The notes under the pieces: generated by a model
What the model saw: only the letters and a program-made list of their open reading frames with translations
The model's database searches: none
Told to the model about the DNA's origin: nothing
Position numbers and translations under genes: made by a program
From: Streptomyces sp. SCUT-3
GTDB taxonomy: Bacteria > Actinomycetota > Actinomycetes > Streptomycetales > Streptomycetaceae
Length of the DNA: 64,000 nt
Assembly (NCBI RefSeq): GCF_014083985.1
Contig: NZ_CP046907.1
Span: 4,254,501-4,318,500, forward strand
Direction: 5' to 3'
Shown here: piece after piece, positions 4,821 to 59,450 of the stretch
Position numbering within the stretch: the stretch's first letter is position 1
Layout: every line of letters begins with the position of its first letter

Positions 4821-4854
4821 ACCCCGCGGAACCGGCGGCCGCAGGGACCGCACC

Positions 4855-4909
4855 GCAGGAAGCAGGAAGCAGGAAGCAGGAAGCAGGAAGCAGGAAGCAG
4901 GAAGCAGGA
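4855..4909. repeat. Heptanucleotide tandem repeat GCAGGAA, about 7.9 copies
   Basis: Seven perfect copies of GCAGGAA run from 4855 to 4903, followed by six bases of an eighth. The array lies in the 249-base gap between the betaine aldehyde dehydrogenase and choline dehydrogenase genes. It is purine-rich on the + strand and contains repeated AGGA cores that resemble ribosome sites, but no start codon follows closely. Such a short perfect array could vary in copy number by slippage. Confidence 0.95.
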
Positions 4910-5069
4910 CACCGGACGCCGGTGCCAGCGCACGGACGTCCGGCCGCCGCACAGCCCCGGGCCGTCCAGCTCCGGGCCGCACCGTCCCGGGCCCGGCCGC
5001 CCTGCGCCGCACAGCCCTGTACCGGGCCGCCGTACCGGCCCGCAGAAGATCACGAGGAGCGCTACCCCC

Positions 5070-37500: not shown

Positions 37501-38476
37501 GAACCCCGAGGACGCCCGCGCCCGCCTGTCCGAGCTCAAGGGCATGGCCAACCGCTGCCTGCGCCTGGACCAGCCCGACTGGCTGGACGTCTGGCACCTC
37601 CTCGGATCTCCCGACAGGGCCCGGCTGAACCGGCTGCGGGACCTCACGGTGACCACCGCCCGCGCCCTGGCCTCCGGCACGCCCGACCCCGACCGCATCG
37701 CCGCCGACCTGCGGGCCGGCGGCTGGGCCGACGCCCTGGCCGCCGCCCGCCACGCCCTCGAACAGCGCCTGGCCGCCGCAACCGCCCCGGACACCAAGGC
37801 TGACGGGGCCACCGGGACCACCGGGGCCGACGGTGTCGGCGAGGCCGCCGAGAGCAGCCCTGCGGACGCAGCGCCCGAAACCGCCCCGGACGCCACCGAC
37901 AAGGCACTCCCCGCCGCCGCACCGCAGCAGCCCGAGACGAAGGACACCGACCCCGTGCCCACCACCGCAGCCGCCGTCGACGCCCCGGCCCCGCAGACGG
38001 AACCGAAGCAGACGGAACCGAAGCAGACAGAACCGAAGCAGACGGAACCGAACGCGTCGTTCCTCCGGATGCTTGAGGCATCGGCCGCCGACGACCGGAC
38101 GCACAAGACCCACGAGACGGTGCGCCACCGGCTGATCTCGGACCTGTGGGACGCCGACCGCCAACCGACCAGCACGCCCGTCGTCGACATCTCCTGCACC
38201 ACGGAGGACAGCCGGTTCCTCTACGAGGTCCTCGACGCAGGCCACTCCTCCTACGCCGACCTCCGCGCGGGCGCGGTCCGTCTCCTGGAGATCAACCACA
38301 CTCTGCCTGCGCCCGCCGACCGTCTCCACCTGGTCCTCTCCGAGCCGCCGGCCGAGGACTGGGCGGCCGAGACCGTCCGTGCGGTCTTCGGCGTCCACGT
38401 CCTGTGGCGCACCCCCGAGGGCTGGGCCGGCCAGGACGTGGACACCGCCCTCGGCTCCCGCCCCGGTGGGCACTGA
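34577..38476 (+). CDS. HelD/HelR-like helicase-type ATPase with long C-terminal extension
   Basis: A 1,299-residue superfamily I protein of the HelD class, which recycles RNA polymerase; HelR members dislodge rifamycins. The N-terminal coiled-coil begins IAIEQKAVDRAYACYEAQL. Walker A is VQGGPGTGKSAVGLH, Walker B is HIVVDEAQDLTPMQA, and later motifs are QLNTSYRVPAE, EAKGMEFDHVLVVEP and LRQLYIALTRSTQSL. The helicase core ends near residue 770. It is followed by three repeat linkers, an OB-like segment (GTDVRVRVVGHTTGGHYKVE), a helical domain, and a C-terminal domain I cannot name (SRFLYEVLDAGHSSYADLRA). Usual HelD/HelR are 650-780 residues. The GTG start follows GAGGAAGGGG; upstream in-frame codons are unlike the family. 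Confidence 0.85.
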   Translation: MGSTTRDDVIAIEQKAVDRAYACYEAQLAELTGGSVAKASATGKDGIANRREAEEQARAYGGLGGEALVVSRVDTQDGPGGERETWYVGRRRVSDPGSSELVVVHWASPAAKTWIEALPQDPGEVLLRRQLRCAQRIVEDYFDDIAVSVPGLVPDAAPVPVPVPATVPVPVPATVPEPRPAADDAGTDAQEPGQEAPDQADSVDPADPATVPPQRRRLRPPAPTPGDVVRMQRRKPAQPDDFLLRELRRSRSGRMRDIVETIRRDQMALVTGSPSDILVVQGGPGTGKSAVGLHRVTWLVNNEHFKARDILVVGPHQRFLDYVGQVLPTLGTRDVNAVQLDRLWEGEIRGTDGPEARRVKSDERMAAVLHRRVENECRPEAVDGLLTEASYEGDEPSFTVTAGRTTLRVPRTELLALLDEARRGDGAYRERRTRFRSMLVDRLLRELAAVFPRRGADGTIRRDLERNRRVERLVERLWPSLGAREALRSLYDSPDLLRACADGILDEDEQAALHRPRGATAADDPWTLDDRVCLEELRYLVDGEVPPRYGHIVVDEAQDLTPMQARSLRRRCAASGSMTVLGDLAQATGPHTHTAWDRLGAILSDHGDWSVAQLNTSYRVPAEIMDFVAPLARAVAPSLPYPQAVRAAGPDAVRTVATEPWKLLDDTAAQVARLVGSSDGNTLRSVAVVVPDDSGWIDEIGRRLEQDADVTDQEREAVSVLPAAEAKGMEFDHVLVVEPATVADRGPAGLRQLYIALTRSTQSLTVLHTSPLPAALTGHGDGPDGGAEQPAAESAAESAAESAVGSGQPQDGGAQPAADAGPGAAPGPGTAPAGEDSAATRAGTAPTSDAAPTSDAAPTSDAALTPDAALTPDAAVSGIPEIGTDVRVRVVGHTTGGHYKVEALSPATDRPLLLAVRHGSAPPAAGEELDAWVLRHDSSVSFVTTDRRGRSPVSPRMAARYVDALTVLDALAGGENPEDARARLSELKGMANRCLRLDQPDWLDVWHLLGSPDRARLNRLRDLTVTTARALASGTPDPDRIAADLRAGGWADALAAARHALEQRLAAATAPDTKADGATGTTGADGVGEAAESSPADAAPETAPDATDKALPAAAPQQPETKDTDPVPTTAAAVDAPAPQTEPKQTEPKQTEPKQTEPNASFLRMLEASAADDRTHKTHETVRHRLISDLWDADRQPTSTPVVDISCTTEDSRFLYEVLDAGHSSYADLRAGAVRLLEINHTLPAPADRLHLVLSEPPAEDWAAETVRAVFGVHVLWRTPEGWAGQDVDTALGSRPGGH
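36948..36985. repeat. In-frame 12-bp repeat, three copies (AESA)
   Basis: Three copies of GCGGCGGAGTCT encode AESAAESAAESA in the first linker after the helicase core. Copies are identical, so the array is young or actively homogenised. Confidence 0.9.
37109..37203. repeat. In-frame 18-bp repeat, five copies (TSDAAP / TPDAAL)
   Basis: Five 18-bp units encode (TSDAAP)2, TSDAAL, TPDAAL and TPDAAV. Neighbouring units differ at one or two positions. The array forms a Pro/Ala/Asp linker between the helicase core and the OB-like domain. Confidence 0.9.
37994..38050. repeat. In-frame 15-bp repeat, four copies (QTEPK)
   Basis: Four copies of CAGACGGAACCGAAG, one with a G-to-A change, encode QTEPK three times and QTEPN. 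They separate the helical domain from the unidentified C-terminal domain of the helicase-like protein. Confidence 0.9.
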
Positions 38477-48010: not shown

Positions 48011-48562
48011 TGCGTTCCCCCGTAATCGGTCGTACATGGCCGCTCTCGGTTCCCGGCGGCAGGCCGAGTCCCGTCCTCGTGCCGTGACTCTCCTCGCCGG
48101 GGTGGTGCGCCGGCACGTCGTCCCGGCGATGCCGAGGCTAGGAGAGCGGAGGTGTCAACGGCGTCCCGCAGAGAGCCGATGGTTCCGTCAACTTCGTTCG
48201 GCGATTCGCTGTTCGAGGTAAACCTCGCGCTGACGGCCGGGGTCGTCCTGCGGTTGACCCGTCAGCCGCAGGACGCCCCCGGGGACTGCACGCGGTGAAC
48301 CTCGGCCCGGAGGAGGCCGCCACGCACCTCGCGGTGGGGATGGCCGCGCAGGAGCTGGGGCGCGGGAAGGTCGCGGAGCAGGCGCACGCCCGACGGGGAC
48401 TGATCCCCCGCATGCCGCCGCGGACCGAGGGCGTGCGGCCTGTGGTGGCACTGGCGGTCCCGGACTCCGGATCCCGAACCCCGCCCGGTGCCGGCCGGAG
48501 TCGGCGGGCGGGGGAGCTGCCGGGGCGCTGAGGGGGCACTGCCGGGGTGCTGCGGGGCCTCA
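48011..48562. other. Intergenic region, no supported gene
   Basis: About 550 bases between the lipoprotein start and the SARP-type operator. Frames are open on both strands, but none shows a recognisable protein, signal peptide or convincing ribosome site. It should contain the lipoprotein promoter. An AT-richer patch lies at 48180-48230. Confidence 0.5.
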
Positions 48563-48622
48563 TGGACGCGCGTTGACTCCCCCTGGACGCGTGCTTGGAG
48601 CCCGCTTGAGCCGCGTTGACCG
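48563..48622 (+). promoter_or_regulatory. SARP-type operator: six heptamer direct repeats
   Basis: Heptamers TGGACGC, TTGACTC, TGGACGC, TTGGAGC, TTGAGCC and TTGACCG begin at 48563, 48573, 48584, 48595, 48606 and 48616, a spacing of 10, 11, 11, 11 and 10 bases. Direct heptamers at 11-bp period just upstream of the -10 region are the classical binding sites of SARP activators (ActII-ORF4, DnrI). The adenylation-enzyme operon starts 125 bases downstream, and a SARP gene lies at the other end of the cluster. Confidence 0.75.
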
Positions 48623-48747
48623 GGGCGAGCGACCCCTGTGAGTCTCTGCGGCGTCACACCCCGGCACTCCGATGGTCCGGCACATCGGGCCGGCCCCTGC
48701 CGGAGCCCCGTTTGCCCCCCACCCCCACGGACGGGAGCGAGTCCCCC

Positions 48748-50259
48748 ATGCCCTCCCAGAGCTTTCTCGGGTCGTTCGCCGAGTCGGCGGAGGAGCACCC
48801 CGACAGGTGCGCCCTCGCCCTGGACGACCGTCAGGTCACCTACCGGGAACTGCAGGACGCCGCCTCCTGGTTCCGTACCGGGACGGCACTGCCCGGTCTG
48901 CCCGCGGGGCGGCCGGTGTGCGTTCCCGCGGTCAAGACCCCGGAGACCCTCGCGCTGCTCCTCGCCGCGCTGGCGGACCGCCGGCAGATCCTGCTGCCCT
49001 CGCCCGAACTGGGAGAGGAGGTGCTGCTGCGCCTGTGCCGGCAGGCGTCCTGCTCCGCCGTCCTCCTCGCCGGGCGTGACGCGGACGGCCGCCCCTCGCT
49101 GACCGTCCGAGCTGTGGAGGCGGTGCCGGAGGAGGCCGAGGGGTTCCGGCTGCCCGGCCCGGACGAGGCGCAGCTGATGCTGACGACCTCCGGGTCGACG
49201 GGCACCCCGAAGATCGTCCCGATCCTCGCCGAGGCGGCCGACCGCTTCATGGAGTGGGGTGCCGGGCAGTTCGGGCTGCGGCCGGGGAAGAGGGTACTGA
49301 GCTACGCGCCGCTGAACTTCGACCTCTCCCTGCTCGACGTGTGGGCGGCGCTGCGGGCGGGGGCCGAGGTGGTCCTGGTGGACCAGGAGCGGGCCACCGA
49401 CGCCGCGTACCTGGCAGGTCTCCTGGAGAGGTACCCGGTCCACCTGGTGCAGGCGGTGCCGCTGTTCTACCGGCTCCTGCTGGACGGCGGACCCTCCGGC
49501 GCGCGCCGGTTCCCCGACGTCGGGCACGTGGTCTTCACCGGCGACGCGATGCCGTACGACCTGCTGCGCCGGCTCCCCGACGCGTTCCCCGGGGCGTGTC
49601 TGCACAACGTCTTCGGCTGCACCGAGACCAACGACAGCTTCCGCCACGAGGTGGACCCGGCCGCGGTCGCGCCGGGGGAGGTGCTTCCCGTCGGCCGGCC
49701 CCTGCCCGGGGTGGAGGCGGTGGTCACCGGCTCCGACGGCGCGGTCCTGGAAGGGCCGTGCACCGGGGAGCTGCTGGTGTCCACGCCGTTCCAGACCTCC
49801 GGCTACCTGGAGACCCGCCGCAACGCGGACGTCTTCGTCCGGCTGCCGGGCGACGCCTCGGGGCGCGTGTACTACCGCACCGGCGACATCGTGACGCGCC
49901 GGGCCGACGGCCTGTACCTGCTGGAGGGCCGCAGCGACTTCCACGTCAAGGTCCGCGGGGTGCGCGTCAACCTGCAGGAGATCGAGCAGGTTCTCCGCGA
50001 CCACCCGGAGGTGGGCGACGCCGCCGTGGTGGCCCTTCCCGACGAGGTGGCCGGTGTCCGGCTGCACGCCCAGGTGCAGCGCCTTCCCGGCAGCGGCCTG
50101 CGCTCCCTGGCCCTGCGCACCCACTGCTCCCGTCACCTGCCCCGGCCCGCGGTCCCCGCCTCCCTCGTGGTCGCGGACGATCCGCTGCCGCGCATGCCGA
50201 CGGGCAAGCCCGACCGAAACCTCATCAGGAAGAACCGGATGGAGAAGGAGCCCGCATGA
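48748..50259 (+). CDS. Stand-alone NRPS-type adenylation enzyme
   Basis: A 503-residue AMP-forming ligase expected to activate an amino acid and load it on the adjacent carrier protein. Core motifs: A3 LMLTTSGSTGTPK, A5 NVFGCTETNDS, A7 YYRTGDIVTRR, A8 FHVKVRGVRVNLQEIEQVL and A10 MPTGKPDRNLI. ATG 48748 begins the family-like SQSFLGSFAESAEEHPDRCA. The stop overlaps the carrier start (ATGA). If this is a showdomycin-type locus the substrate would be L-glutamine. I did not extract the specificity code, so L-proline, the substrate of similar stand-alone enzymes in pyrrole pathways, is not excluded by sequence. Confidence 0.88.
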   Translation: MPSQSFLGSFAESAEEHPDRCALALDDRQVTYRELQDAASWFRTGTALPGLPAGRPVCVPAVKTPETLALLLAALADRRQILLPSPELGEEVLLRLCRQASCSAVLLAGRDADGRPSLTVRAVEAVPEEAEGFRLPGPDEAQLMLTTSGSTGTPKIVPILAEAADRFMEWGAGQFGLRPGKRVLSYAPLNFDLSLLDVWAALRAGAEVVLVDQERATDAAYLAGLLERYPVHLVQAVPLFYRLLLDGGPSGARRFPDVGHVVFTGDAMPYDLLRRLPDAFPGACLHNVFGCTETNDSFRHEVDPAAVAPGEVLPVGRPLPGVEAVVTGSDGAVLEGPCTGELLVSTPFQTSGYLETRRNADVFVRLPGDASGRVYYRTGDIVTRRADGLYLLEGRSDFHVKVRGVRVNLQEIEQVLRDHPEVGDAAVVALPDEVAGVRLHAQVQRLPGSGLRSLALRTHCSRHLPRPAVPASLVVADDPLPRMPTGKPDRNLIRKNRMEKEPA

Positions 50260-50510
50260 GCGGCGACATCAAGGACTTCATCATCACGCAGTTCCTGCCC
50301 GACATCGACCCGGCCGAACTGTCCGACGACTACGACCTGGTGGAGAACGGAGTGGTCGACAGCCTCGGGCTCCTGCGCGTGGTCGCCTGGGTGTCCGAGA
50401 CCCACGGGCTGTCGCTGGACGACATCCCGATCGCCCCGGACAACTTCCGCAGCGTCGAGGCCATACGGCGCTTCGTGGCCGAGGCCCGGGTCTCCGCCGG
50501 CCTCCACTGA
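50256..50510 (+). CDS. Acyl/peptidyl carrier protein
   Basis: An 84-residue stand-alone carrier protein. The 4'-phosphopantetheine attachment Ser is in LVENGVVDSLGLLRVVAWV. It is translationally coupled to the adenylation enzyme, which fixes its partner. It should carry the aminoacyl group while the downstream cyclase and dehydrogenase act on it, as carrier-bound prolyl is handled in pyrrole-2-carboxylate pathways. Confidence 0.93.
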   Translation: MSGDIKDFIITQFLPDIDPAELSDDYDLVENGVVDSLGLLRVVAWVSETHGLSLDDIPIAPDNFRSVEAIRRFVAEARVSAGLH

Positions 50511-50633
50511 GCCGCTCCCGCACCATCGGGTCCTTCCGGACCGCAGTTCCTCTCCCTCGCCGTACGCGGCGACCGCACATCACGCTGTCGCCGTCACACA
50601 GAAGGCCACAGCCGACAAGAAAAGGGGAAAGTC

Positions 50634-51008
50634 GTGATCATTCGCAGCCTCGAGGACGTCAAGGACATCGAGTGGGGCAACGGCCTCAGCCGGCGTCTGC
50701 TGACCGAGGAGGACGGCATGGGTTACACCCTCACCGACACGGTCGTCTACAAGGGGACCTCCTCCGCGCTCCAGTACGAGCGGCACCTGGAGGCCTGCTA
50801 CTGCATCGAGGGCAGCGGCGCGGTCCGCACCGTCGACGGCGAGGTCATCCCGATCAAGCAGGGCACCATGTACGCCCTCGACAAGCACGACGCCCACCAC
50901 CTGATCGCCTCCGACCACGAGGACTTCCGCCTGGTGTGCGTCTTCTCCCCGGCGTTGCGCGGCGACGAGGTCCACACCCTCAGCGAGGACGGCTACTCGC
51001 GTTACTGA
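50634..51008 (+). CDS. Ectoine-synthase-like cupin cyclase
   Basis: A 124-residue cupin clearly related to EctC: the N-terminus MIIRSLEDVKDIEWGNGLSR, then LEACYCIEGSGAVRTVDGEV, IPIKQGTMYALDKHDAHHL and LVCVFSPALRGDEVH follow EctC almost motif by motif. No ectA, ectB or ectD is present. EctC closes a cyclic amidine, and as a side reaction makes 5-amino-3,4-dihydro-2H-pyrrole-2-carboxylate from glutamine. In this operon it probably cyclises carrier-bound glutaminyl to that five-membered amidine. GTG 50634 follows AAAGGGGAAAG. The 123-base gap before it has no hairpin that I can see. Confidence 0.88.
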   Translation: MIIRSLEDVKDIEWGNGLSRRLLTEEDGMGYTLTDTVVYKGTSSALQYERHLEACYCIEGSGAVRTVDGEVIPIKQGTMYALDKHDAHHLIASDHEDFRLVCVFSPALRGDEVHTLSEDGYSRY

Positions 51009-51099
51009 CACAGGGCCTCACATCCCATCGCCGTGTCCGGCCGGGGCGCGCCCGCGCGGACCCCTGCCGGACACGGCCACGAGGAGAGCGGGACACACC

Positions 51100-52238
51100 G
51101 TGATCAACTGGACGACCGAGCAGCTGGCTCACCGTGAGCGGCTGCGCCCGTACGCCGAGGAACTCGGCGCCGACCACGCCGAGTGGGACCACCGCGAGGA
51201 GTTCCCTCGGGAGAAGTGGGAGGTCCTGAGGAAGACCGACCTGCTGCGCCTGCCCTTCGAGCGGGAGTGGGGAGGGCTGGGCGAGGACCTGACGACCACC
51301 ATGTGCGTCCTGGAGGAGCTGGGGCGCAGCTGCCGCGACGCGGGCCTGAACTTCTCCGCCTCCACGCAGATCGTCAGCGTCGGCGTGCCGCTGCAGAGGT
51401 TCGGCTCGCGGGAGCTCAAGGAGCGCTACCTGCCGGGCATCGTGGACGGTTCCCTGATCTGCGCGCACGCGATCACCGAGCCGGACCACGGGTCGGACGT
51501 GCTGAACATCACCACCACCGCCGTCCGCGACGGCGACCACTACGTCATCGACGGCGGCAAGAAGTTCATCACCAACGCACCCGTGGCCGACGTCTTCCTG
51601 CTGTACGTGCGCACCGGCGGGGCGGGCAACCCCTGGGACTGAGCGTGTTCCTGGTCGAGCGCGACACCCCCGGACTGACGGTAGGGCCGGCCCTGGGGAA
51701 GATGGGGCTGCGCACCTCGCCGCTGAGCGAGCTGACCTTCGAGGGGATGCGGGTGCCCGCCGCACACCTGGTCGGCCCTGCGGGAGCCGGGCTGATGGTC
51801 CTCGACCACGTGATGAAGCGCGAGATCCTCTTCTCCTTCAGCATCACGCTGGGGGAGATGGAGCACCGCCTGGCCCGCTGCGTCGAGTACGCCCGCACGC
51901 GGCGGCAGTTCGGTCGGAGCATCGGGGAGTTCCAGTCCGTCTCCCACCGGATCGCCGACATGCGGATCGCGGTGGACACCTCCCGCAAGTGGCTGCACGA
52001 CACGGCGGAGAAGGTTCTCGCCGGCAAGGACACCACCTTGGACGTCGCCGCCACCAAGACGGTCGTCAGCGAGGCGAACTCGGCCACCGCCCTGGCGGCC
52101 CTGCAGATCTTCGGCGGCAACGGCTACCTCACCGGGACCGGCGTGGAGCAGGACGTGCGCAACGCGCTGGCGGGGACCGTCTACTCGGGCACGTCCGAGA
52201 TCCAGCGCAACCGCATCGCCGCCGTGCTCGGCCTCTAG
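51100..52238 (+). pseudogene. Acyl-CoA dehydrogenase-like enzyme, split by a frameshift
   Basis: Two frames together encode a normal flavin acyl-CoA dehydrogenase of about 379 residues. The first (51100-51642) ends YVRTGGAGNPWD-stop, and the second continues LGLSVFLVERDTPGLTVGPA to 52238. Inserting one base in the C-run at 51630-51633 gives GGAGNPLGLSVFLVERDTPG, as in homologues. The middle HAITEPDHGSDVLNITTTAV and the C-terminal GGNGYLTGTGVEQDVRNALA and GTSEIQRNRIAAVLGL are intact. Such enzymes aromatise carrier-bound prolyl to pyrrolyl; here it would oxidise the cyclic amidine to an aminopyrrole. The break may be a sequencing error, a real mutation or slippage (CCC re-pairing one base back). 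GTG 51100 follows GAGGAGAG. Confidence 0.85.
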
Positions 52239-52307
52239 CCGCCCCGCACCGTGCCGCCTCCCCCACCCGTCCTGCCACCGAAGCGGTTCACCCACCGGAG
52301 GACACCC

Positions 52308-52994
52308 ATGCCCGCGACCACCGGCTCACCGACGGACCACGAGCACCTGCTGCGGTCCACCGAGTTCCTCGACCACGACTCCCCCGAGGTGCGCGCCTTC
52401 GTCGACCGCGTGGTCACCGACCACGACGCGCCCGCCCGGGAGAAGGCGGTGCGGCTCTACTACGCCGTCCGCGACGACGTCTTCTACGAGGTGTACGGGG
52501 CGGACCTCTCGCGCGCGGGACTGCGGGCGAGCTCCGTGGCCCGCGGGGGGAAGGGCTTCTGCCTGCACAAGTCCGTCCTGTACGCGGCCGCGGTGCGGGC
52601 GGTCGGCGTCCCCAGCCGCCTGGTCTTCGGCGACGTGCGCAACCACCTGGCCTCGGACCGGCTCAAGGAGCACATCGGGGGTGACGTCTTCTTCCACGCC
52701 CTGACCAGCGTCCGTCTGGAGGGGCGGTGGGTGAGGGCGACGCCGGTGTTCAACAAGACGCTGTGCCGGCTGTACGGCATGAGTCCGCTGGAGTTCGACG
52801 GCACCGCGGACAGCCTCTACCACCCCTTCGACGACCGGGGGCAGCAGCACATGGAGTTCCTGGCGATGCACGGAGAGTTCGACGATCTGCCCCACGACTT
52901 CGTCATGGAGCGGATGCGCTCGCAGCACCCGAACTTCCTGAAGGGGACCGGCACCGTGGGCGGCGGTTCCCTGGCCGACGAGGCCGGCCGGTGA
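52308..52994 (+). CDS. Transglutaminase-like cysteine hydrolase
   Basis: A 228-residue transglutaminase-core protein. The candidate triad is Cys in GGKGFCLHKSVLYAAAVRA, His in GDVFFHALTSVRLEGRWV, and Asp or Asn in the following strand (ATPVFNKTL). ATG 52308 has GGAGGAC at ideal spacing. It is the last gene of the SARP-controlled operon. No other thioesterase is visible, so it may hydrolyse the aminopyrrole-carboxyl thioester from the carrier. The fold also covers peptidases and amidases, so this role is inference. Confidence 0.8.
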   Translation: MPATTGSPTDHEHLLRSTEFLDHDSPEVRAFVDRVVTDHDAPAREKAVRLYYAVRDDVFYEVYGADLSRAGLRASSVARGGKGFCLHKSVLYAAAVRAVGVPSRLVFGDVRNHLASDRLKEHIGGDVFFHALTSVRLEGRWVRATPVFNKTLCRLYGMSPLEFDGTADSLYHPFDDRGQQHMEFLAMHGEFDDLPHDFVMERMRSQHPNFLKGTGTVGGGSLADEAGR

Positions 52995-53062
52995 CCGCGG
53001 CCGTGCGGCCTGCGTGGCCGGTACGCCCCGTGCGCCCCGCGCGTCCCGTGCGTCCCGTGCCG

Positions 53063-53545
53063 TCAGGAGAAGGCCCTGCGCAGCGCCGCCACGGCGGTCC
53101 CCAGCTCCGGCGAGGACCGCGCGGCCTCGTCCAGGGCGGCGGCGAGGGTCTGCTCGTAGGTGGAGCGCGCCCGGGAGTGGAGGGCGCGGCCCGCGTCGGT
53201 GAGAACGGTGTAGACGCCGCGCTTGTCGTTCATGCACACGTCCCGGTAGGTCCAGCCGGCCTCGTTCATCCGGGCGACCAGGCGGGTGACGGAGCTCTGG
53301 TTCAACGCGATCCGGTCGGCCAGCTCCTGCATGCGCAGTTCGCTGTCGTCCGCCGCGGACAGGTGGCCGAGGGCGCGGTACTCCGACAGCCCCATGCCGT
53401 GGTGCCGTTGCAGAGCGGTGGTGAGCCGGTGTTCCACACGACTGTGCAGGGCGGCCACCTGGCGCCACATCAGGTCGTCGACGGCGGCTTCGGCGGTGTC
53501 GGGAGCGGTGGTGTCGGGAACGGCGCTGTCGGGACGGGACTGCAC
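53063..53545 (-). CDS. MarR-family transcriptional regulator
   Basis: A 160-residue MarR protein: LMWRQVAALHSRVEHRLTTA, GLSEYRALGHLSAADD, the winged HTH LADRIALNQSSVTRLVARMN and VYTVLTDAGRALHSRAR. GTG 53545 follows GAGGAGG. Upstream in-frame starts add a region that is really the divergent promoter. It faces the deaminase/C-glycosynthase operon and is likely to repress it and itself, perhaps sensing a pathway intermediate. Confidence 0.88.
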   Translation of the reverse strand: MQSRPDSAVPDTTAPDTAEAAVDDLMWRQVAALHSRVEHRLTTALQRHHGMGLSEYRALGHLSAADDSELRMQELADRIALNQSSVTRLVARMNEAGWTYRDVCMNDKRGVYTVLTDAGRALHSRARSTYEQTLAAALDEAARSSPELGTAVAALRRAFS

Positions 53546-53592
53546 GGAAACCTCCTCGGAGCGAGCTCTTCCGGTCATCCGGACCCCCATGC

Positions 53593-53620
53593 TTGACACG
53601 AGAGTACATGCACATACATT
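53593..53620 (+). promoter_or_regulatory. Candidate sigma-HrdB promoter of the C-glycosynthase operon
   Basis: TTGACA (53593-53598) and TACATT (53615-53620) are separated by 16 bases in an AT-rich pocket between the divergent MarR and deaminase genes. The hexamers agree with the vegetative consensus at six and four to five positions. Transcription would start near 53627. Confidence 0.65.
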
Positions 53621-53635
53621 CTTCTGGGAAATAAC

Positions 53636-53651
53636 TTGCAAGCGCATTCAA
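53636..53651. promoter_or_regulatory. Candidate MarR operator
   Basis: TTGCAAGCGCATTCAA is a 16-bp imperfect palindrome (six of eight pairs match, TTG/CAA ends). It sits about 10 bases downstream of the predicted transcription start and between the MarR gene and its presumed target. TTGnnnnnnCAA-like palindromes are typical of MarR sites. Confidence 0.5.
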
Positions 53652-53681
53652 ATAGCACGTGCACCCCCACGAGGAGGCACC

Positions 53682-53750
53682 ATGGTACGGAACCGTCCGC
53701 TCGTCGCCTCCCGTCCGGAAACCCTCCCCGAGCCCGCCCCGGAGGCGTGA
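53682..53750 (+). CDS. 22-codon open frame with strong ribosome site
   Basis: ATG at 53682 follows GAGGAGG and reads MVRNRPLVASRPETLPEPAP-EA to a stop four bases before the deaminase ATG. It is too short for domain recognition and Pro/Glu-rich. It may be a leader peptide that couples translation to the deaminase, or a chance frame. Confidence 0.35.
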   Translation: MVRNRPLVASRPETLPEPAPEA

Positions 53751-53754
53751 GGCG

Positions 53755-54228
53755 ATGCCTGCGACGTACGCGGACCTGTACGAGTACGCCCGCCTGACGG
53801 TCGACCTGTCGGTCCGGCACGTCGCGGAGGGCGGGGTCCCGTTCGCGGCCCTGGTCGTGCGCGGGGATCGGGTCCTGGGCACCGGCGTCGACCGGGTGCA
53901 GGAGGACCGCGACCCCACCGCGCACGCCGGGATGGTCGCCCTGCGCCGCGCTGCCGCCGAGCACGGCCCCGCCGCCCTGGCCGGATCGCTGCTCGTGGCC
54001 TCCGGCGAACCCTGCCCGCTGTGCTACGCGGCCGCGATCTGGTGCCACGTCGACCAGGTCGTCTTCGCCGCCGACCGGCACACCGCCGCCAGTGCGGGCT
54101 TCGACTACACGGACTCGTACGCACTCCTCACCGCCGACCCGGCGGACTGGCCCATGAGGGCGACGCACCTGCCCGTGCCGGGAAGCCGGCGCCCCTTCGA
54201 CGACTGGCGGGCGCGCACCCTCTCCTGA
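53755..54228 (+). CDS. Cytidine-deaminase-superfamily protein lacking the catalytic Glu
   Basis: A 157-residue protein of the guanine/tRNA-adenosine deaminase type. The zinc ligands are present as TAHAGMVALRRAA (His) and EPCPLCYAAAIW (two Cys). The proton-shuttling Glu of the H-A-E motif is Gly here. The rest (GGVPFAALVVRGDRVLGTG, VVFAADRHTAASAGFDY) is family-like. ATG 53755 follows GGAGG. A classical hydrolytic deamination is doubtful. It could still act on an imine such as the maleimide imine proposed in showdomycin formation, or serve as a binding protein. The 146-base gap to the next gene is GC-rich with no clear element. Confidence 0.82.
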   Translation: MPATYADLYEYARLTVDLSVRHVAEGGVPFAALVVRGDRVLGTGVDRVQEDRDPTAHAGMVALRRAAAEHGPAALAGSLLVASGEPCPLCYAAAIWCHVDQVVFAADRHTAASAGFDYTDSYALLTADPADWPMRATHLPVPGSRRPFDDWRARTLS

Positions 54229-54374
54229 CCGGCCCCCTCCGGGTCCGCCCGCACCCGCACGGAAACACCTCGCACGGAAACACCCCGCACCGCCCCGCGG
54301 AGCGGCCGGGCACCCGCCCCGGCCGCCCGACGAGAACGTCCACCGAACGTACGTCCCCGTCACAAGGAGGCACC

Positions 54375-55334
54375 ATGTCCCTGGCCGCCGGCGCCGGCAC
54401 CGACCTGCTGGACATCGCGGAGGAGGTGGCCGAGGCCGTCCACGAGGGCAGGCCCGTGGTCGCCCTGGAGTCGTCCAACATTCCCCAGGGGCCCGCCTAT
54501 CCGGCCAACCTGGAGATGGCCGTGGCCATCGACAAGGCCGTCCGGGACGCCGGAGCCGTGCCCGCCCGGATCGGCCTCCTGGACGGCCGGATCCTCGTGG
54601 GCATGACCGACGACCACCTGGAGCGGTTCGCCACCACCCCCGACGCACCCAAGGTCAGTACCCGCGACATGGGCGTCGTCCTGGCTGCCGGAGGGCCGGG
54701 CGGCACCACCGTCTCGGCCTCGCTCATGGGGGCCGAGCTGGCCGGCCTGAGCGTCTTCGCGGTGGCCGGCATCGGCGGCGTGCACCGCGACGCCCCGCAG
54801 TCCTTCGACATCTCCGCGGACCTGGCCCAGTTCACCCGCAGCCGCCTCGCCGTGGTCTGCGCCGGGGCCAAGTCGATGCTCCACCCCGCGCTCACCCTGG
54901 AATGGCTGGAGACCGCGGGCGTCCCGGTCATCGGCTACCGGTGCGACGACTTCCCGGCCTACCTCAGCGTCTCCAGCGGGGTGCGCAACCCGCACCGCCT
55001 CGACGACCTCGGGGAAATCGCCGCGGCCGCCGTCACGCACTGGGCCGCCGGCGGGTCCGGCTCGGTCCTGGTCACCCACCCCATCGCGGAGGCCGACGGC
55101 ATCCCCTCCTCCGACATCGAGCAGGCACTGGCCGACGCCACCCTCCTGGCGGAGCGGGACGGGGTGAGCGGTCCGGCGATCACCCCCTACCTGCTCAAGG
55201 CGATCGCCGCGGCGACCGAGGGGCGCACCACCGCCGCCAACCGTGCGGTGCTGCTGTCCACGGCCTCCCTGGCCGGCCGGTTCGCCGTGGAGATGACCGC
55301 GGCGCTCGGCTCCACCGGGGGGCGTGCCCGATGA
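54375..55334 (+). CDS. PsuG-family C-glycosynthase (pseudouridine-5'-phosphate glycosidase-like)
   Basis: A 319-residue PsuG-family protein, related to IndA/MinB, AlnA and SdmA, which make C-C bonds between ribose 5-phosphate and an aromatic acceptor. The Schiff-base lysine is Lys166 in VVCAGAKSMLHPALTLEWLE, matching E. coli PsuG numbering. The N-terminal ALESSNIPQGPAYPANLEMA replaces the usual HGMPYP with QGPAYP, and near the C-terminus VLLSTASLAGRF has Ser-Thr where E. coli PsuG has Asn-Asn (from memory). These acceptor-side changes suit a non-uracil base. ATG 54375 follows AAGGAGG. It is coupled to the HAD gene. The proposed acceptor is 2-amino-1H-pyrrole-5-carboxylate. Confidence 0.9.
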   Translation: MSLAAGAGTDLLDIAEEVAEAVHEGRPVVALESSNIPQGPAYPANLEMAVAIDKAVRDAGAVPARIGLLDGRILVGMTDDHLERFATTPDAPKVSTRDMGVVLAAGGPGGTTVSASLMGAELAGLSVFAVAGIGGVHRDAPQSFDISADLAQFTRSRLAVVCAGAKSMLHPALTLEWLETAGVPVIGYRCDDFPAYLSVSSGVRNPHRLDDLGEIAAAAVTHWAAGGSGSVLVTHPIAEADGIPSSDIEQALADATLLAERDGVSGPAITPYLLKAIAAATEGRTTAANRAVLLSTASLAGRFAVEMTAALGSTGGRAR

Positions 55335-56104
55335 GCCCCGCGGTCCTGTTCGACATGGACGGCACCCTGGTGGACACCCCGGGCGCCATCGTGACCACCC
55401 TGTGCACGGTCCTCGAGGAACTCGGCACCCCCCGGCCCGATGCCCTGGAGGTGCGGGCGACCGTCGGGCGCCCCCTGGTCCCGTCCTTCGCCTCCCTGCT
55501 GCGACTCGACGAGGGCGATCCGACGGTCTCACGAGCCGCCGAGCGCTTCCGGACCCTCTTCCGCGACACCGTGGTGCCCGACGCCCCCCGGCTCGTCCTG
55601 CCCGGCGTGGTGACGCTCCTGCAGGAACTGCGAAGCGACGGCCACCCGCTCGCGGTCGTCACCAGCAAGGTCCGCGCGGGGGCCGAGGAAATGCTCGAGT
55701 CGGCAGGGCTGGCGTCCTGTTTCGACGCCGTGGTGTGCCACGGCATGGCCGAACGGGGCAAGCCGCACCCCGACCTCGCCCTGCTGGCGGCGGACCTGTT
55801 GCGCCGCCCCGCCGCCGAGTGCGTCGTGGTCGGTGACGCAGTGGATGACATGCGCATGGCTCGGTCCGCCGGCATGACCGCGATCGGGGTCTCCTACGGA
55901 GTCGCCGACACCCGGGCCCTGTTCGAGGCCGGGGCCCACCGGGTGGAGCACTCCGCCCCGGCGGTCGGACGGGCCCTGTCCGAACTCACCCTGTCCGGAT
56001 CCACCCTGTCCGGGCCCGCACCCGACCGGGCACCCGCCTCCCGGGACGGCGAGGAGCCCCCGTACCCCGCAACCCCCAGCACCGAAGTGGTGATCAGCAC
56101 ATGA
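55331..56104 (+). CDS. HAD-family phosphatase (C-nucleoside dephosphorylation)
   Basis: A 257-residue PGP-like HAD hydrolase: motif I VLFDMDGTLVDTPGAI, motif II VVTSKV, motif III GKPHPDLA and motif IV ECVVVGDAVDDMRMARSAG. The ATG overlaps the C-glycosynthase stop, and the stop overlaps the MFS start. PsuG-like and HAD genes occur as pairs in alnumycin (AlnA/AlnB) and in the indA/indB loci, where the HAD enzyme removes the 5'-phosphate after C-ribosylation. The last 45 residues are a Ser/Pro-rich tail absent from typical HAD proteins. Confidence 0.9.
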   Translation: MSPAVLFDMDGTLVDTPGAIVTTLCTVLEELGTPRPDALEVRATVGRPLVPSFASLLRLDEGDPTVSRAAERFRTLFRDTVVPDAPRLVLPGVVTLLQELRSDGHPLAVVTSKVRAGAEEMLESAGLASCFDAVVCHGMAERGKPHPDLALLAADLLRRPAAECVVVGDAVDDMRMARSAGMTAIGVSYGVADTRALFEAGAHRVEHSAPAVGRALSELTLSGSTLSGPAPDRAPASRDGEEPPYPATPSTEVVIST

Positions 56105-57534
56105 CCGTATCCGACCGGACGGCCCAGGCGGCCCCGAAGCCGTCGTCGCGGGCCGCCGCCGGACTGGCGACCCTGTCCGCCGCCCAGTTCCTCATCGCCC
56201 TGGACTTCTCCGTCATCTTCGTCGCGCTGCCCAGCATGGGCGCCGACCTGGCCCTCTCCGAGAGCGCCGTGCAGTGGGTCGTCAGCGCCTACGCGGTGTT
56301 CTTCGCCGGATTCCTCGTGCTCGGCGGGCGGGCCGCGGACCGCATCGGTGCACGCACCCTGTTCGTCGCGGCCCTGCTGCTGTTCGGGGTGGCCTCCTTG
56401 GCCGGGGGCATCGCCCAGGGAGCGGCCGTGCTGCTGGTCGCCCGCGCGGCCCAGGGCGTGGCGGCCGCCACCCTGCAGCCCTCGATCCTGGCCCTGGTGA
56501 ACACCACTTTCGAGCCCGGTCCGGCCCGTACCCGGGCCCTGGCCGTCTGGGGGACCGTGGGCGCCAGCGGCCTGGCCGCCGGCGTGGTGCTCGGCGGCCT
56601 GCTCACGACGGTGTCCTGGCGCTGGACCTTCCTGGTCAACCTCCCCTTCGCCCTGGTGTGCGTGCTGGCAGCCCCCAAGGTCCTGCCGGCCCCCGTGCGC
56701 CTCGCGCGCTCAGCGGCCCCGCTCAACGTCGTCAGCGCGGTGCTGTGCACGGCGACGGTGCTCGTCTCCACCCTCGGCCTGACCCGGGCCTCGGAGGCGG
56801 GCTGGGGCGACCGGACGGCCCTGGCGTGCTTCGCCGCGACCGCCGTGCTGCTCGCCGCCTTCCTCCTGCGCGAGCGTTCCAGCGCGCAGCCGCTGGTCGC
56901 CCCGGTACTGCGCCGCACCCGCACCCTACTGGCCGGATGCGGTGCCGCCGCCCTGTACATGGCCAGCGTCGCCGGAGTGGAGTTCTACCTGGTCACGCTG
57001 GCGCTGCAGGACCAGCGCGGCTTCACGCCCCTGCAGGCGGGAATCGCGTTCCTCCCGCTGGCGGTGTGCATCACCCTCGGCAACACCGTCGCCGGGCGCC
57101 TGCTCACCCCCTGGGGCGTCAGGCGCACCCTCTCCGCCGCCTTCCTCCTCGGCGCCGCGGGGCTGGTCCTGCTGGCGCTGTCCGTCGGCCTGGAGGGGTA
57201 CGCCGCCGCGATGCTCCCCGGCCTTCTGGTCAGCGGCATCGGCCACGGAATGATCTACACCAGCATGTTCGTGGGAGGCACCCGGGACGTTCCCGACTCC
57301 CACCAGGGCACTGCGGGCGCACTGATGACCACCAGTCAGTACGCGGGCGGAGCGCTGGGGGTGGCCGTCCTGGTGCTGGTGCTCGGAACCGCCCCGGACA
57401 CGGGGAGCTTCGCGGCCGGTTTCACCATGGCCGGTGGGATCGCCCTGGTCGGTGCGGTGCTGGCCTGGACAAGTTTCGCCGGCGGGGCGCGACAGAGCGC
57501 GACGGCCGGCACGACCGCGGAGGTGAAGGCATGA
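56101..57534 (+). CDS. MFS drug exporter, DHA2 (14-helix) type
   Basis: A 477-residue major facilitator. Motif A-like GRAADRIGARTLFVAA and the DHA2 N-terminal LIALDFSVIFVALPSMGADL are present, with about fourteen hydrophobic segments. The position between the HAD and racemase-like genes with four-base overlaps on both sides makes it the likely exporter of, and self-protection against, the cluster product. Release of the active nucleoside may be tied to dephosphorylation by the preceding gene. Confidence 0.92.
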   Translation: MTVSDRTAQAAPKPSSRAAAGLATLSAAQFLIALDFSVIFVALPSMGADLALSESAVQWVVSAYAVFFAGFLVLGGRAADRIGARTLFVAALLLFGVASLAGGIAQGAAVLLVARAAQGVAAATLQPSILALVNTTFEPGPARTRALAVWGTVGASGLAAGVVLGGLLTTVSWRWTFLVNLPFALVCVLAAPKVLPAPVRLARSAAPLNVVSAVLCTATVLVSTLGLTRASEAGWGDRTALACFAATAVLLAAFLLRERSSAQPLVAPVLRRTRTLLAGCGAAALYMASVAGVEFYLVTLALQDQRGFTPLQAGIAFLPLAVCITLGNTVAGRLLTPWGVRRTLSAAFLLGAAGLVLLALSVGLEGYAAAMLPGLLVSGIGHGMIYTSMFVGGTRDVPDSHQGTAGALMTTSQYAGGALGVAVLVLVLGTAPDTGSFAAGFTMAGGIALVGAVLAWTSFAGGARQSATAGTTAEVKA

Positions 57535-58394
57535 CCGGGACGTCCCCCGCCACCGCCCGGCTGGGCGCGCTGGTGATCCACAACGATCCCGTTCCGGAGA
57601 TCGAACTGGGCCTGGGCCGGGTGCCGGGAGTGTCCGTGCACGCCGCGCGGTTCGAGTGCCCCCGCCCCGTCGACGGCGAGTACACCGGCAGCGCCGCCCG
57701 CGCGCTCGCCGAGGCGCCCGACGTCGTCCGCGGCCTGGACCAGCTGGGCAGGCTCGGCGCGGACTGCATCGCTCTGTGCTTCGGGTCCAGCAGCTTCTTC
57801 GGGGGCCAGGACTTCGACCGGGAGTTCACCGAGGTCGCCGAGGGGTTCTCCCACGGCGTGCCGGTGTTCACCGCGGCCACGGCCATGACGGCCGCCATGC
57901 GCGCCGGTGGCGTGCGCAGGCCGCTGGCGGTGATGCCGCCGTGGTTCACCGAGCCCACGTTCCGTGCGACGGAGGAGTACCTGGCCGGGGCGGGGATGCG
58001 GCCGTGCGGGCTGCTGCAGTTCGACCTCGGACCCCGGTGGGAGGGGGTGGCCCGGTACAACGCCTTCGACCTCGGCGCCCGCTGGGAGGTGCACCCGCAG
58101 GAGGTCTGCGACCAGGTGCTGCGGGGCCTGCCCGGGGACGCCGACGGCATCCTGCTGCCCGGCAGCGGCTTCCGCTCCTGGGAGGCGATCGTCTCCCTGG
58201 AGCGGGAGACCGGGCTCCCGGTGGTCACCTCCAACCAGGCGGTCCTGTGGTACGGGCTGGCCCTGGCCGGCGGCCCCGCCGGCCCGCCCGGGGGCGGTCG
58301 GCTGATGGACCGCCCCGGGCCGCCGCCCGCCGGCCGTTCGGCGTCCGAGGGGGCGGACGCGGAAGGGGAGGGTGCCGCCGTCCCCGCGCGCTGA
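57531..58394 (+). CDS. Asp/Glu racemase-superfamily enzyme (maleate isomerase/AMDase-like)
   Basis: A 287-residue protein of the superfamily of Asp/Glu racemases, maleate isomerases and arylmalonate decarboxylases. The first catalytic cysteine region is CIALCFGSSSFFGG. The second, expected as a Cys-containing loop after the ILL strand, reads GILLPGSGFRSWEAI with no Cys. Racemases and isomerases need both cysteines, while arylmalonate decarboxylase has only one, so a decarboxylase or altered reaction is more likely. Its context suggests action on the pyrrole carboxylate or a maleimide-type product. The ATG overlaps the MFS stop, and the C-terminal 40 residues are Pro/Gly-rich. Confidence 0.78.
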   Translation: MTGTSPATARLGALVIHNDPVPEIELGLGRVPGVSVHAARFECPRPVDGEYTGSAARALAEAPDVVRGLDQLGRLGADCIALCFGSSSFFGGQDFDREFTEVAEGFSHGVPVFTAATAMTAAMRAGGVRRPLAVMPPWFTEPTFRATEEYLAGAGMRPCGLLQFDLGPRWEGVARYNAFDLGARWEVHPQEVCDQVLRGLPGDADGILLPGSGFRSWEAIVSLERETGLPVVTSNQAVLWYGLALAGGPAGPPGGGRLMDRPGPPPAGRSASEGADAEGEGAAVPAR

Positions 58395-58421
58395 GCCGGG
58401 GTCTTCCGGCGCTCCCCTCCA

Positions 58422-58463
58422 CCGTGTCGCGGGCCCGTCCGCAGGGCCGGGCCCGCGACACGG
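58422..58463. terminator. Perfect 16-bp stem hairpin closing the operon
   Basis: CCGTGTCGCGGGCCCG and its exact complement flank a 10-base loop, 27 bases after the racemase-like gene. It is a strong terminator at the end of the deaminase-to-racemase operon and separates it from the SARP promoter. Confidence 0.8.
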
Positions 58464-58492
58464 AGAGAATCCGAAGGTTTACTCGACGTGCG

Positions 58493-58524
58493 TGAAAAAA
58501 AACCGCTCCTGTGGTATTTTTTCA
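58493..58524. promoter_or_regulatory. AT-rich palindrome upstream of the SARP gene
   Basis: Arms TGAAAAAAAACC and GGTATTTTTTCA (one mismatch in 12) flank the 8-base spacer GCTCCTGT. The same architecture, including shared AAACC, CTC and GTAT-TTTT elements, occurs upstream of the TetR gene at 60214-60241. It is a likely operator of the gamma-butyrolactone-receptor-like TetR. Its extreme A/T content in this GC-rich genome also suggests a core promoter. Confidence 0.65.
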
Positions 58525-58598
58525 AGGAGGGGAGTGTGCCATGACCCCGTCAGTCGTTCCACCTTGTCGGATGAACTGCCCTCGAAGGGGTCGCCGCA

Positions 58599-59450
58599 AT
58601 GGACGTTGCCGTGCTCGGACCACTGACCGTCAGATACTCGGGACTCTCCGTGGTGCCCACCGCGGCCAAGCCCCGTCGACTCCTCGGCCTGCTGGCGGTC
58701 CGCGCGGGTCAGCCGGTTCCGGTGGAGACCATCTGTGCGGAGTTATGGGGAGGCGACCGTCCGCGCACGGCCCATCTCACGCTCCAGGGGTACGTCTCCT
58801 CCCTGCGTGCCCGCGTGCGGGCCGCGGCCGAGCAGGGGAGCGGCGGGGAGGAACCGGTCGACCCCAAGGAGATCATCGTCGGAACCAGCTGCGGGTACGT
58901 CCTCAGGGCAGGGGAGAGCAGCAGCGACGTGCGGGAGTTCGACCGGCTGGCCGAGGCCGGGCACGAGGCCCAGAAGTCCGGGAACCACCGCCTCGCGGCC
59001 CAGCGTTTCGGCCGGGCACTGGCCCTGTGGCGCGGCCCGGCGCTGGCCGACGTGCGCAGCGGCCCCGAACTGCACCGTGAGGCGCTCCGCCTGGAGGAGT
59101 CGCGGCTGAGCGTGCTCGGCTGCCGGGTCGAGGCCGACCTGAACATGGGGCGCCATCACGCGCTGGTGGGCGAGATCGCAGCGCTCTGCGCGCAGTACCC
59201 GCTGCACGAGGGCCTGCACCGGCAGCACATGATCACCCTCTGCCGGGTGGGGCGGCGCCTTGATGCGCTACGCGCGTATAACCGGCTGCGCGCTGCCCTC
59301 AAGGCCGCCCAGGGCATCGAGCCCTCGATCGAGCTCAAACGCCTCCACCACCAGGTCCTGCACTCCCGCATCGCCCCCTTCGCCGGAGCGGTCGAACCGA
59401 TGCCCGCACTGTCCGCCACGTCCGGGGGCGGCGAGGCCACCGTGGCCTGA
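58599..59450 (+). CDS. SARP-family pathway activator with TTA codon
   Basis: A 283-residue SARP. The N-terminal OmpR-like DNA-binding domain is AVLGPLTVRYSGLSVVPTAA with KPRRLLGLLAVRAGQPV, and the BTAD region includes ALALWRGPALADV and LHEGLHRQHMITLCRVGRRL. ATG 58599 follows GAAGGGG at about 10 bases. Codon 49 (58743-58745) is TTA, so translation needs the bldA tRNA. The heptamer array upstream of the adenylation operon is its probable target. A better ribosome site (AAGGAGGGG) sits before an out-of-frame ATG at 58541, which may interfere with initiation here. Confidence 0.92.
   Translation: MDVAVLGPLTVRYSGLSVVPTAAKPRRLLGLLAVRAGQPVPVETICAELWGGDRPRTAHLTLQGYVSSLRARVRAAAEQGSGGEEPVDPKEIIVGTSCGYVLRAGESSSDVREFDRLAEAGHEAQKSGNHRLAAQRFGRALALWRGPALADVRSGPELHREALRLEESRLSVLGCRVEADLNMGRHHALVGEIAALCAQYPLHEGLHRQHMITLCRVGRRLDALRAYNRLRAALKAAQGIEPSIELKRLHHQVLHSRIAPFAGAVEPMPALSATSGGGEATVA

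Follow-up and report, generated by a model that had tools for sequence, protein, structure and literature searches.

Gene organization of the C-nucleoside cluster

The analysed window, a stretch of 64,000 nucleotides at 4254501-4318500 of the Streptomyces sp. SCUT-3 genome, contains a showdomycin-type C-nucleoside cluster at 48748-59450 (Table 1). Based on enzyme families and the published roles of the Sdm proteins, homologues of sdmA, sdmB, sdmC, sdmD and sdmE are linked here, and the related locus L116 has the same enzymes. A first operon is followed by the convergent marR gene, a second operon and a SARP gene. The first operon begins at an ATG preceded by an SD-like sequence. Its oxidase gene has an interrupted reading frame, which is intact in the homologues of relatives; the break is either a sequencing error or a genuine mutation and, if real, may cripple the pathway. 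The marR start was placed at GTG 53545 from its SD sequence. The second operon is headed by a gene which we take to encode a deaminase by resemblance rather than by a family search. Upstream of it, between two predicted MarR operators and the deaminase gene, lies a 22-codon ORF (53683-53751) with a strong SD sequence (GAGGAGG) that stops just before the deaminase start; it is possibly a leader peptide or serves translational coupling. By inspection, a strong inverted repeat is present 3' of the second operon near 58424-58461.

All functions of sdmC, sdmD, sdmE, sdmA and sdmB in the showdomycin (sdm) cluster (PMC8724604) are thus found, and the genes of the first operon are the counterparts of SdmC, SdmD, SdmE and the oxidation and hydrolysis steps of that pathway. 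In contrast to the sdm cluster, the genes are here split into an operon fronted by a repeat array and one fronted by MarR boxes, with a SARP and a MarR regulator of their own.

Table 1. Coordinates of the cluster genes and of predicted regulatory features in the window.
Feature	Position	Strand	Basis
Six-unit phased array, proposed SARP operator	48563..48622	+	scans and sequence
Unit 1, TGGACGC	48563	+	
Unit 2, TTGACTC	48573	+	
Unit 3, TGGACGC	48584	+	
Unit 4, TTGGAGC	48595	+	
Unit 5, TTGAGCC	48606	+	
Unit 6, TTGACCG	48616	+	
Candidate core promoter of sdmC operon	48616..48654	+	sequence inspection
sdmC-like stand-alone adenylation enzyme	48748..50259	+	Pfam AMP-binding 1.3e-45
sdmD-like carrier protein	50256..50510	+	position; NCBIfam acyl-carrier-protein models below cut-offs
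sdmE-like ectoine-synthase-fold cyclase	50634..51008	+	Pfam Ectoine_synth 4.7e-37
Acyl-CoA-dehydrogenase-like oxidase, frame interrupted near 51642	51100..52238	+	
Transglutaminase-like hydrolase, last gene of array-fronted operon	52308..52994	+	Pfam Transglut_core 5.8e-15
MarR-family regulator	53063..53545	-	Pfam MarR_2 1.6e-9
Consensus-like promoter TTGACA-16-TACATT, deaminase/sdmA operon	53593..53620	+	1 found, 0.0 expected, sd 0.1
Predicted MarR operator 1	53604..53619	.	PWM 17.0, best match in 64 kb
Predicted MarR operator 2	53636..53651	.	PWM 14.6, second best in 64 kb
Deaminase-like gene (presumed), heads second operon	53755..54228	+	translation; homologues near marR in relatives
sdmA-like C-glycosynthase, YeiN/IndA fold	54375..55334	+	Pfam Indigoidine_A 1.1e-95 (longer ORF searched)
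sdmB-like HAD phosphatase	55332..56104	+	Pfam HAD_2 7.8e-33 (ORF with upstream start searched)
MFS exporter	56101..57534	+	Pfam MFS_1 5.5e-49
Arylmalonate-decarboxylase/racemase-like enzyme, closes second operon	57531..58394	+	family search
Small SARP, winged-helix domain and BTAD	58599..59450	+	BTAD 1.1e-40; alignment to AfsR 8hvr/8jke/8k60 and EmbR 2fez

A phased array of six units precedes the sdmC operon

The original prediction placed six repeats in a 10-11-bp register before the adenylation operon and proposed that they keep helical phase over 60 bases. Both claims hold. A motif-blind scan of 48480-48747, which seeks the best chain of six 7-mers at steps of 10 or 11 bp, scores 57.0 compared with 34.4±2.9 for dinucleotide shuffles, and none of 300 shuffles scores as high. 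The unit-to-unit steps are 10, 11, 11, 11 and 10 bp, and a straight-line fit gives a period of 10.71 bp per unit with residuals below 0.5 bp. The array lies 126 bp upstream of the sdmC-like gene. Its heptamers are not identical and form a degenerate family with the common core T[TG]G[AG] (n=6, sequence 48540-48640); unit 4 reads TTGG, or TGGA if the step is 12 bp. Within the array there are also a 13-nt imperfect repeat (48558/48579) containing units 1 and 3 and a 24-nt repeat of 71% identity (48554/48597).

With a PWM built from the array itself the six-unit chain scores 51.4 in the 64-kb window, while the runner-up (17.9) overlaps the same array and the maximum elsewhere is 11.7. A three-unit sub-pattern has three copies in the genome (6.08 Mb, single contig), one of them the array. 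Nothing comparable turned up in 34 further promoter regions, taken from related clusters and from SARP genes nearby and comprising the upstream regions of sdmC homologues, of showdomycin-like operons and of two SARP genes near these; the highest z among them is 3.8, compared with 7.1 for the array. Within the cluster, blind and PWM scans detected nothing comparable before the deaminase/sdmA operon or the SARP gene, in line with the prediction that only the adenylation operon has the repeats; some weak phasing is seen within the marR/deaminase gap as well (45.7 vs 35.1±2.8, blind scan). Chains of similar score occur about 12 times per Mb in related genomes when a fixed GC-rich background is used, mostly in low-complexity or A+T-rich DNA. 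Since such chains recur under this background, it is position and context that strengthen the case for the array. Short tandem-like repeats elsewhere in the window (37996-38060 and 4846-4920) have blind-scan scores equal to that of the array.

Comparison with known SARP operators

A SARP site typically comprises two or three heptamers, repeated directly once per helical turn (PMC10972967), and AfsR occupies 11-bp direct repeats with one protomer on each and side-by-side contacts between them (PMC10936776). The spacing of the array agrees with such a geometry. The afs box of afsS likewise consists of tandem 11-bp direct repeats, the SARP domain of AfsR can be aligned with that of the cluster SARP, and a single mismatch separates the AfsR site CGTT(T/C)A (PMC10972967) from the CGTTGA at units 2 and 6. 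At afsS, however, only two repeats lie over the -35 region and spacer (PMC10936776, PMC10972967), compared with six here, and the canonical spacing to the -10 is not seen at the array. PimR binds cooperatively to 3+2 repeats (PMC5930380); its operator at pimM resembles the array in having more than two heptamers at steps of 10 and 11 bp, but the CGGCAAG heptamers of PimR are divided between two operators whereas the six units are contiguous, and PimR is a large SARP-LAL protein whereas the cluster regulator is a small SARP. The small SARPs DnrI, ActII-ORF4, VlmI and FdmR1 (PMC10972967) and OtcR (PMC4393881) act, like the system proposed here, at direct repeats with 11-bp spacing before biosynthetic operons, but these sites have two or three repeats and other heptamers (OtcR CGGTCGAAG). 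Thus, the array does exceed the usual copy number, as had been predicted. No 7-mer of the array exactly matches a published SARP consensus.

Sense of the motif near related SARPs

On the minus strand the array reads GGTCAAC GCTCAAG GCTCCAA CGTCCAG AGTCAAC CGTCCAT, with a core TC[CA]A[GC] that matches 11-bp arrays near the closest homologues of the cluster SARP. We applied the same blind scan to 40 loci around these homologues, where TC[CA]AG arrays with 11-bp steps lie about 50-100 bp before genes. Twelve arrays in these loci have three or more TC[CA]A[GC]-type units; 11 of them, representing about five independent families, are on the coding strand and one is on the opposite strand. Relative to sdmC, the TC[CA]A[GC] form of the window array falls on the non-coding strand. 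Its quasi-palindromic core, judged by the sense linked to the homologues, faces away from sdmC.

The opposite sense also occurs near SARPs. Triplets of T[TG]GA sense with 11-bp steps precede the SARP genes of L176 and L202, and by eye units of both senses are intermixed in L200, L206 and L183. The target may therefore be sdmC in spite of the sense of the units. Because units of the TC[CA]AG or T[TG]GAG type recur at 11-bp steps near the nearest SARPs, the core and spacing of the array are those of SARP-linked arrays. By sequence, the array motif is SARP-like, though in the less common sense. In L176:12420-12530 and L202:10899-11020 (minus) the three T[TG]GA units are followed by a TAGCGT -10 at a distance of exactly 33 bp, an arrangement that is possibly a conserved promoter type for SARP genes.

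The cluster SARP has an unusual recognition helix

The original prediction assumed a SARP, and the cluster indeed encodes one of 283 amino acids. It consists of an N-terminal OmpR-type winged helix and a BTAD with no further domains, as defines a small SARP; the Trans_reg_C match (26.0 bits) falls marginally below the cut-off of 26.2, and the protein can be aligned to AfsR and EmbR across both domains. The recognition-helix segment reads LQGYVSSLRAR, where nearly all homologues compared have LQTYVLQLR or LQTYILQLRR. In the alignment T88 and R92 of AfsR, which make base contacts (PMC10936776), are replaced by G and S. The specificity of AfsR is therefore not transferable to the cluster SARP, and the unusual helix leads us to expect a non-standard heptamer whose sequence is not predictable. 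Borrowing the specificity from the nearest SARPs was likewise rejected, as the best homologues are at most 52% identical and differ in their recognition helices. Plasmid records yielded neither a closer SARP nor a closer C-glycosynthase.

Core promoter and leader of the sdmC operon

A search for an ordinary sigma-70 promoter at sdmC found no consensus match. At the canonical SARP spacing, 8 bp past the last heptamer, the sequence is GACCCC and no -10 is present. Inspection leaves two candidates. In one, TTGACC (48616-48621), which is part of unit 6, would serve as -35 with GAGTCT (48640-48645) as -10 after 18 bp. In the other, the -10-like CGGCGT (48649-48654), with four of the six bases of TAGCGT, starts 33 bp from the start of the last unit, as the -10 does in L176 and L202. 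The leader RNA from the array to the start codon is no more stable than its shuffles.

Predicted MarR operators lie at the second operon

We derived a MarR operator model (TTGCATGATCATGCAA) from sequences preceding marR and sdmC in 16 relatives, with the window excluded. In these relatives the operator is present at marR and also before sdmC, there over a TTGAC resembling a -35 (e.g. TTGCTTGACCATGCAA). In the window both top matches fall into the marR/deaminase gap, 32 bp apart, and the third-best match in 64 kb scores 8.2. Predicted operator 1 overlaps sequence upstream of marR as well as the deaminase promoter, and lies inside TTGACA-16-TACATT, the only consensus-like promoter found in the gap. 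The palindrome is thus conserved together with marR over the divergent promoter region, as is typical of an autoregulated MarR operator. In contrast, the sdmC promoter has no box (PWM score -7.7).

Among the relatives, L046 has the ring enzymes most similar to those of the window. Its marR is placed as in the window, its two MarR boxes are again separated by 32 bp, and no box is present at its sdmC promoter either. Its divergent stretch encodes small proteins that by appearance resemble membrane exporters, followed by the deaminase. Because MarR matches are found at deaminase/sdmA but not at sdmC, whereas in relatives they cover the sdmC -35, the ring operon appears to have exchanged MarR control for the array. 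In the simplest reading, sdmC escaped from MarR in this lineage, the ring operon bears the array instead, and the sugar-attaching genes in the window stand behind a MarR-controlled deaminase. This lends support to the proposal that the aglycone and ribosylation halves are separately switched: with conserved MarR operators at the promoter of deaminase/sdmA but none at sdmC, the two halves look separately controlled.

The C-D-E-oxidase module itself occurs in more than 50 loci of the family, mostly without SdmA, SdmB or a SARP, and marR adjoins it in a large group of these. Aminopyrrole-type modules with no C-glycosynthase nearby are found in L047-L057, L062, L080, L081, L083 and L119; they contain adenylation, carrier, ectoine-synthase-like, oxidase, transglutaminase-like and arylmalonate-decarboxylase-like genes, marR and often a deaminase. 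A second version of the module, with about 2 kb extra between the carrier-protein and cyclase genes, is present in L059-L079 (e.g. L061:6158-8197). The showdomycin-like clusters L116-L118 have no such array and no MarR boxes, with a SARP nearby in two of them.

Discussion

We consider it probable that the array serves as an extended operator of the SARP type, through which the cluster SARP activates the sdmC operon, while MarR holds the second operon. Protomers of the small SARP, or of a close paralogue, would sit next to each other on the six 10-11-bp units, along a single face of the helix. The bound row would recruit RNA polymerase to the promoter from which the sdmC-D-E-oxidase-hydrolase operon is transcribed, and the products of this operon would provide the pyrrole precursor. 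The divergently encoded MarR would sit on two operators over the promoter and hold the deaminase-sdmA-sdmB-exporter operon. We infer that the SARP binds the array, that it activates rather than represses, and how many protomers it seats, and likewise that MarR binds the conserved boxes and represses. More tentatively, and with somewhat greater doubt than trust, we suggest that the six contiguous units, longer than the SARP operators we found described, accommodate small SARP protomers in a filament-like row and have replaced the ancestral MarR control of the aminopyrrole operon.

The array might instead be bound by another OmpR-type or SARP protein of the cell (AfsR, PhoP or any of the seven remaining BTAD proteins), which would link the ring operon to a global signal, e.g. 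phosphate. AfsR and PhoP likewise bind 11-bp direct repeats and sometimes share sites (PMC10972967, PMC4415409), and eight BTAD proteins are encoded genome-wide. However, the TTCA core of their sites (GTTCACC, CGTTCA) is absent from the array, and the best PHO-box pair near it scores 16, which equals background (159 window positions score at least 16) with a consensus that separates phoU promoters poorly. A PHO box, i.e. 11-nt repeats with a GTTCACC core, was therefore rejected as a description of the array, albeit with a weakly discriminating consensus, and we regard control by such a protein as unlikely.

The sense of the units raises the question whether a SARP operator faces left, serving a leftward transcript, flanking the sdmC promoter with no activating effect, or repressing it. 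Near related SARPs the sense of the minus-strand core is indeed the one usually found on the coding strand (11 vs 1 arrays), but the nearest leftward gene start is about 520 bp away (48037, DUF4232), the ORF starting within the array resembles antisense noise, and the distance to sdmC is plausible. Together with the T[TG]GA-sense arrays of L176 and L202 and the mixed senses described above, this makes a left-facing operator rather improbable. Least probable of all is that the repeats are devoid of regulatory function and arose by chance or through duplication of local sequence. The 13-nt and 24-nt repeats inside the array would fit such an origin, as would the similarly scoring phased chains that related genomes carry in low-complexity DNA, but all six units stay in phase although their spacers differ, no shuffle reaches the score, and the array is intergenic, directly before an operon.

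The number of SARP protomers that a promoter can accommodate, and the benefit of additional repeats, are known for very few promoters; engineering of the PimR promoter suggested that three repeats are optimal (PMC5930380). With six units occurring naturally upstream of one half of a small cluster, the question becomes directly testable. If the array replaced MarR, ring synthesis on the one hand and C-ribosylation and export on the other would be under two different signals, and the change from MarR to the array would illustrate how a widespread aminopyrrole module may be rewired on joining a C-glycosynthase.
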